Below, piece by piece: positions 18,730 through 19,284 of a DNA stretch of 64,000 nt. Source of the stretch: Phycisphaerales bacterium UBA1845 (GTDB lineage: Bacteria > Planctomycetota > Phycisphaerae > UBA1845); NCBI GenBank assembly GCA_002338715.1, contig DDIR01000119.1:1-64000 (forward strand). The letters run 5' to 3'. The position numbers and the translations under genes were made by a program. Under the pieces are notes generated by a model. That model saw nothing but the letters and a program-made list of their open reading frames with translations, made no database searches and was not told the DNA's origin. Each line of letters opens with the position of its first letter. Positions within the stretch are counted from its first letter, which is position 1.

Positions 18730-19284
18730 ATGTCGGCTGACCTGACAATCAACAATGAGCTGCTCGCGACGTTTTGCGATCAAGACGAGCATTCGCTTTC
18801 CGAACTCTCGGAGGCATCACCGGTGCTGCTGATTTTCCTGCGGCATATGGGGTGAATGTTTTGCCACGAGGCGCTGGCTGAGGTCTCAGCCAAAATGAAA
18901 TCGATCAACGGTGCCGGTGCGCGCGTGGTGCTCGTGCACATGATTTCCGAAGCCGAGGTCGCTCCTATGATGGAAGGGCACGGACTTGGGGAGACGTCGC
19001 GCATCAGCGATCCGGATCGCAAGCTGTATGCCGCGTTTGGGCTTGCGGAGGGGGGACTTGGGGCGATGCTGTCGCCGAAGGTCTGGGCGTGCGGGATCAA
19101 GGCGACGCTTGCGGGCCATCTGCCGCGCCGGCCCAACGGGAACGTCTGGCAGATGCCCGGGGTGTTCTTGATCCACCGCGAACAGGTGTTGTCGCGGTTT
19201 GTGGCTAAGACCATCTCAGACAAGCCGGATTTCGAATCGTTTGTGCGGACGGGACTTGAGTCGGTCCGCGATGATCTCGGCTGA
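18730..19284 (+). CDS. Predicted selenoprotein, AhpC/TSA-like thioredoxin-fold oxidoreductase
   Basis: Reading from ATG 18730, 41 codons lead to an in-frame TGA at 18853-18855, and the same frame continues without break to 19284, 184 residues in all. Around the TGA the protein reads LLIFLRHMG-U-MFCHEALAE. Members of the AhpC-TSA_2/PRXL2-like family have a Cys-x-x-Cys here (FLRHxGCxFCxE), so Sec42-x-x-Cys45 fits exactly. Downstream family features also match: ISDPDRKLYAAFGL and WQMPGVFLIHREQ. A hairpin with an AGGTCT apex lies ~20-30 nt after the TGA. A conventional reader would call only 18856-19284 (142 aa), losing the redox centre. Function: thiol/selenol redox, exact substrate unknown. No other sel genes are in the window. 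Confidence 0.87.
18875..18892 (+). promoter_or_regulatory. Candidate bacterial SECIS hairpin
   Basis: TGGCTGA (18875-18881) pairs with TCAGCCA (18886-18892) around the loop GGTC; the loop plus closing bases read AGGTCT, the same apex as the E. coli fdhF SECIS as I remember it. The loop is ~26 nt after the UGA at 18853-18855, within the range expected for SelB-dependent recoding. No bulged U is evident in the lower stem. The hairpin is inside the coding sequence, as in bacteria. Confidence 0.72.

Follow-up and report, generated by a model that had tools for sequence, protein, structure and literature searches.

A gene of a Phycisphaerales bacterium that very probably uses UGA for the active-site selenocysteine of a peroxiredoxin-like enzyme

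The 64,000 nucleotides of contig DDIR01000119.1 of Phycisphaerales bacterium UBA1845 (assembly GCA_002338715.1) that were analyzed here, the window, contain a reading frame interrupted by a single in-frame TGA, which raises the question of whether this codon ends a gene or is translated. As judged from sequence comparisons, the gene very probably uses UGA for selenocysteine (Sec) in the active site of a peroxiredoxin (Prx)-like enzyme, and we give a probability of about 95% to the reading that it encodes a 184-residue Prx-like (SelL-related) thiol oxidoreductase whose nucleophile is Sec42, the UGA being decoded by SelB and tRNA-Sec under the control of a downstream hairpin. A first-pass annotation of the window had predicted a selenoprotein with Sec in place of the first redox Cys, and this prediction is supported by the NF040769 family profile, the Sec machinery of the genome, the conserved TGA, and the Cys-containing homologues. 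None of the three circumstances that the annotation had named as telling against it (a genome lacking selB or selC, a sense codon other than Cys in close relatives, or a sequencing error for TGC or TGT) was encountered. The features of the locus are as follows.

18730..19284, plus strand: predicted selenoprotein gene (SelL-related redox protein, U42-M-F-C45), 184 codons plus a TGA stop
18853..18855, plus strand: in-frame TGA, very probably encoding Sec at residue 42; TGA at the matching codon in four genomes, Cys in database homologues
18862..18864, plus strand: Cys45 codon TGC, partner of the Sec in UxxC; column conserved as Cys
18856..19284, plus strand: downstream open reading frame (ORF) of 142 amino acids, without the Sec; equal in extent to database entries for close relatives
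18875..18892, plus strand: bacterial Sec insertion sequence (SECIS) hairpin, according to folding, comparison, and published criteria, with a 7-bp stem UGGCUGA/UCAGCCA and a GGUC apical loop at 18882-18885

Reading frame, family, and orthologues

The frame is free of stops both 5' and 3' of this TGA, as had been claimed, and runs from the ATG at 18730 to the stop TGA at 19282-19284 with the motif FLRHMG-U-MFC at the in-frame TGA. This start is in agreement with the orthologues read from MSTDK and MSDTS, each of 184 codons. In the ORF list of the window the only entry in this frame is the 142-residue ORF from 18856, and the five best database matches all start 3' of the UGA. Among public entries, P0002, P0003, P0004, and P0006 start at the Met right behind the TGA, and the best match, P0002, with 96% identity, is annotated as a Phycisphaerales bacterium hypothetical protein (NCBI: Planctomycetota). 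The expectation that automatic annotation would begin after the TGA and lose the active center was thus borne out.

The NCBIfam profile NF040769 (SelL-related redox protein) spans the TGA, matching residues 16-171 with 142.8 bits (cut-off 120), and the read-through protein also exceeds the Pfam AhpC-TSA cut-off of 26 with 34.4 bits. In contrast, the gathering cut-off of 27 for the PRXL2-like family AhpC-TSA_2 was not reached by the full protein (26.2 bits), whereas the truncated form lies at it (27 bits). Therefore, of the earlier assignment, the AhpC/TSA-like redox protein stands, now as SelL-related, and the AhpC-TSA_2 family falls just short.

Orthologues with TGA at the same codon were found in two genomes of the same genus (L029, and L023 of genome G003) and in one of the same family (L033 of G015), with the motifs UMFC, UIFC, and UPFC, respectively, and with identities to the window protein that range between about 41% (L033) and 69% (L029); the three same-genus UGA genes are equal in length, 184 codons. 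Of 200 genomes, that of the host included, 13 exceeded the cut-off for NF040769; TGA is present in 4 of these and absent from the other 9. In the 114 genomes of the order, 8 did so, namely 4 with TGA, confined to a single family (f1), and 4 Cys forms from outside that family. Two further genomes of the genus, G002 and G004, gave no NF040769 match above the cut-off (G002 none whatever), though both have selA. Since the TGA stands at the same codon in four assemblies, a sequencing error is very unlikely, and with three TGA orthologues and ten loci of the order or class that carry Cys at this codon (L036 included), close relatives provided no sense codon other than Cys.

The same exchange was observed in the databases, where 84 of 94 homologues reach column 42 and carry Cys in 83 cases, Ser in one, and Trp in none. 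The ten proteins that fall short of this column include the five best matches, P0012, and P0013, which start after the TGA or later; P0004 is a cut-short reading of the UGA locus L029 and P0013 of L023, and the remaining five late-starting entries would likewise be cut-short UGA genes. The column of Cys45 is Cys in all 88 homologues that reach it (6 of the 94 do not). Two variants of the motif were noticed: P0073, the sole database homologue with Ser replacing the first Cys, retains the second (LGSPFC), and L036 (genome G083), which lies below the NF040769 cut-off, reads MRHSGCTFFR, a C..F instead of CxxC, with the second Cys lost.

When the eight neighboring ORFs of the window were compared with the three orthologous regions (14-16 kb) at an E value of 1e-8, none matched except for a dehydrogenase match in one of them (27% identity), and the conservation of the UGA gene is therefore not mere linkage. 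No match to the gene was found in a plasmid collection at E 1e-5.

Selenocysteine machinery, the hairpin, and competing explanations

The first-pass annotation had proposed a search of the rest of the genome for selA, selB, selC (tRNA-Sec), and selD, and all of them are present in the host assembly (G000; 5.25 Mb, 148 contigs, 91% complete). The tRNA-Sec gene lies on contig C7 (67.7 bits) and is called SeC with anticodon TCA by ARAGORN, eight further matches falling below the cut-off; selA and selB adjoin on C77, and selD is on C129.

The hairpin follows the in-frame TGA, its loop being separated from that codon by 26 nt. According to the part of PMC13188914 that deals with bacterial SECIS elements, these have a loop of 3-9 nt, a stem of 4-16 bp, a G in the first two loop positions, a spacing of 16-37 nt, and a minimum free energy of -7.5 or lower; the hairpin agrees with all of these values (4-nt GGUC loop, 7 bp, 26 nt, and -9.8 kcal/mol for the hairpin alone). 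Its position and GGUC loop are identical in all four UGA genes, and across them five of the seven stem pairs are invariant, one shows a compensatory change (U-A to C-G), one a one-sided change (U-A to U-G), and none is broken. Of the 4608 synonymous encodings of LAEVSA, 216 (4.7%) would retain a 6-bp stem and a GG loop at this place. The window has 2192 TGA triplets, counting both strands. At SECIS distance behind 3 of them lies a hairpin with a GGU loop and 6 or more stem pairs, and of these three only the TGA at 18853 is flanked by over 40 open codons both upstream (60) and downstream (142), the other two having 26/0 and 0/32; for the same hairpin the control counts were 2 of 408 for TAG, 0 of 479 for TAA, 1 of 2587 for TGC, and 1 of 1481 for TGT. 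An Rfam scan at E values up to 1 placed no family within the gene.

Several observations weigh against Sec decoding or reduce the force of the arguments for it. A GG-loop hairpin was present in 21 of 24 UGA loci and in 1 of 16 Cys loci, but the rule was fixed after the hairpins had been inspected and the loci are related (the set was L021 to L063 minus L034, which is the same gene as L023; L062 and L063 lacked a match to the motif, and fdhF, though folded, stood outside the test). The whole 53-nt stretch is ordinary in stability when compared with shuffled sequences (z -1.26), 20 of 200 being equally stable, and the z of the 18-nt hairpin is biased in its favor because the segment was excised for its pairing. 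Constraint 5' of the UGA is modest: over six pairs, the ratio of nonsynonymous to synonymous differences per site (pN/pS) was 0.56-0.72 before the UGA and 0.28-0.70 after it, with synonymous changes near saturation (pS 0.49-0.78). The middle of selB is hidden by a run of N (C77:58637-58727); a frameshift in this gene, which is split over two frames, was considered and rejected, as the split spans that run. Finally, selA, which had matches in 121 of 200 genomes (above the cut-off in 113), was found in 4 of 4 TGA genomes and in 4 of 9 Cys genomes (G069, G095, G097, and G105, with no selA match in G118, G172, G177, G182, and G190), a link to the TGA form that is weak as a statistic.

These points have to be set beside what the competing explanations would require. 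If the TGA were an ordinary stop, a separate 142-residue protein would begin at the ATG at 18856, in agreement with the position of this ATG directly behind the TGA, with the GGGG upstream of it, and with the 142-residue extent that gene callers report in relatives. However, a start directly after the TGA is not conserved, because this codon is ATC in L023 and CCG in L033; moreover, the product would be without the first redox residue, the codons 5' of the TGA fit the NF040769 family from residue 16 onward, and the SECIS-like hairpin would be left unexplained, so that we regard a separate protein as very improbable. Insertion of another residue, e.g. Trp, by suppression or a change of the code appears just as improbable: UGA read-through is possible in bacteria, but the genome carries tRNA-Sec, selA, selB, and selD, column 42 is never Trp in the comparable homologues, and TGA terminates 10 of the 41 long ORFs of the window (at least 200 codons, little overlap; TAA 17, TAG 14) and is therefore not simply reassigned.

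A broken gene, arising by a recent nonsense mutation or by a sequencing error in a Cys codon, would take one base change, but the same TGA and the same hairpin are shared by four assemblies whose proteins have diverged to about 41% identity, and in each of the six pairs pN/pS stays below 1 before as well as after the TGA; given this conservation, such an explanation is all but refuted. Selenocysteine decoding thus remains the preferred reading, and under it the hairpin just 3' of the UGA would direct SelB and tRNA-Sec to insert Sec at residue 42. Catalysis would start with the attack of Sec42 on its substrate, a peroxide or a disulfide; Cys45 would then resolve the intermediate by forming a Se-S bond, to be reduced in turn by a thiol reductant.

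Relation to known families and origin of the Sec form

A confident structural model predicted a Prx-like fold with the UxxC site before a long helix. The best fold match is human PGFS (about 19% identity), of the PRXL2/SelU family, whose Cys44 and Cys47 align with U42 and C45 of the window protein; PGFS was also recovered from the PDB by a profile search, while phmmer with the single sequence gave no significant match in the PDB (one match, E 0.71). Since PrxQ/Bcp and other fold neighbors tie within 1 Z of PGFS, the fold alone picks no subfamily, and PRXL2 membership itself is not settled, other peroxiredoxins matching the model almost equally well.

With the Cys forms of NF040769, mostly FLRHxGCxFC, the protein shares the profile, the motif, the second Cys, and the C-terminal QMPG block, and the window gene differs from them in having Sec for the first Cys, the UGA, and the SECIS hairpin. 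SelL was reportedly described by Shchedrina et al. in 2007 as a Prx-like selenoprotein with two Sec residues (UxxU). The window protein has a single Sec in UxxC, its second redox residue being Cys45 (codon TGC), and thus cannot form a diselenide within its motif; it is neither SelL proper nor demonstrably a SelU. Parts of PMC2398784 and PMC3473315 describe SelL as a Prx-like family whose redox motif likewise contains Sec, the former naming it as common to prokaryotes and eukaryotes and the latter placing SelU Sec forms, including the PGFS branch SelU3, in animals. Prx-like UxxC selenoproteins of bacteria appear in portions of PMC1088965 and PMC2398784 and in Table 1 of PMC13188914, and resemble the window protein in both respects; the NF040769 subfamily may or may not be among those counted there. 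The text of the 2026 review PMC13188914 does not name NF040769, and the term "SelL-related redox protein" was not found in the literature searched.

As to how the Sec form arose, the Sec proteins of the three same-genus genomes grouped as a clade with support of 100/99 in a first tree (84 database proteins) and 100/100 in a second one (25 of these, nine of the ten Cys loci, L036 being left out, and the four UGA genes). L033 was placed apart from the other Sec proteins in the free trees, on a long branch in the first; a single clade of all four occurred in none of 200 bootstrap trees, and a one-clade constraint was not rejected by the approximately unbiased test (p-AU 0.486). We are doubtful, in part because of the bootstrap result, though we entertain it tentatively, that the Sec form represents a distinct UxxC subfamily of one planctomycete family, absent as such from the 2026 inventory, which would have arisen once, along with its SECIS, from an ancestor with Cys and would act as a Sec-dependent peroxide or disulfide reductase.

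Other candidate loci and significance

Downstream of the gene, at 19338-22471, an AAA-type ATPase-like ORF just below the Pfam cut-off lies beside a von Willebrand A domain protein, a pair that was not found near the orthologues. Elsewhere in the host genome, SelD is probably itself a selenoprotein, because the selD match (L018; C129:15237-16160, minus strand) carries an in-frame TGA at CAGUAGK, and Sec in selenophosphate synthetase is listed in the portion of PMC13188914 that includes Table 1. Another likely selenoprotein is L022 (C74:13321-13581, minus strand), an AhpC/TSA domain locus in which the motif reads TYRAFWUPYC and the hairpin has a GGUCC loop. In 19 loci of the same order (L040, L042, L044, and L046-L061), a second redoxin family (RGxWUxxC) has an in-frame TGA, at about 1500-1800 in most of them, and Pfam AhpC-TSA matches L042 with 103 bits; the hairpin CUCCGAGGUCUCGGAG follows the TGA in 6 of the 19 and another GG-type loop in most others, and L050, L051, and L053 had no hairpin by the GG-loop test.

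The UxxC Prx-like selenoproteins and SelL are already in print, as the first-pass annotation had recognized in placing the novelty outside the family, and so is Sec use in Planctomycetes, selenoproteins of which are reported in the relevant part of PMC4807772. With this gene, environmental Planctomycetota gain a well-supported selenoprotein, and one whose active site goes missing in annotation. The four UGA genes with their Cys counterparts in one order make a useful set for studying when Cys and Sec replace each other; apart from this, it is the kind of finding to be expected.
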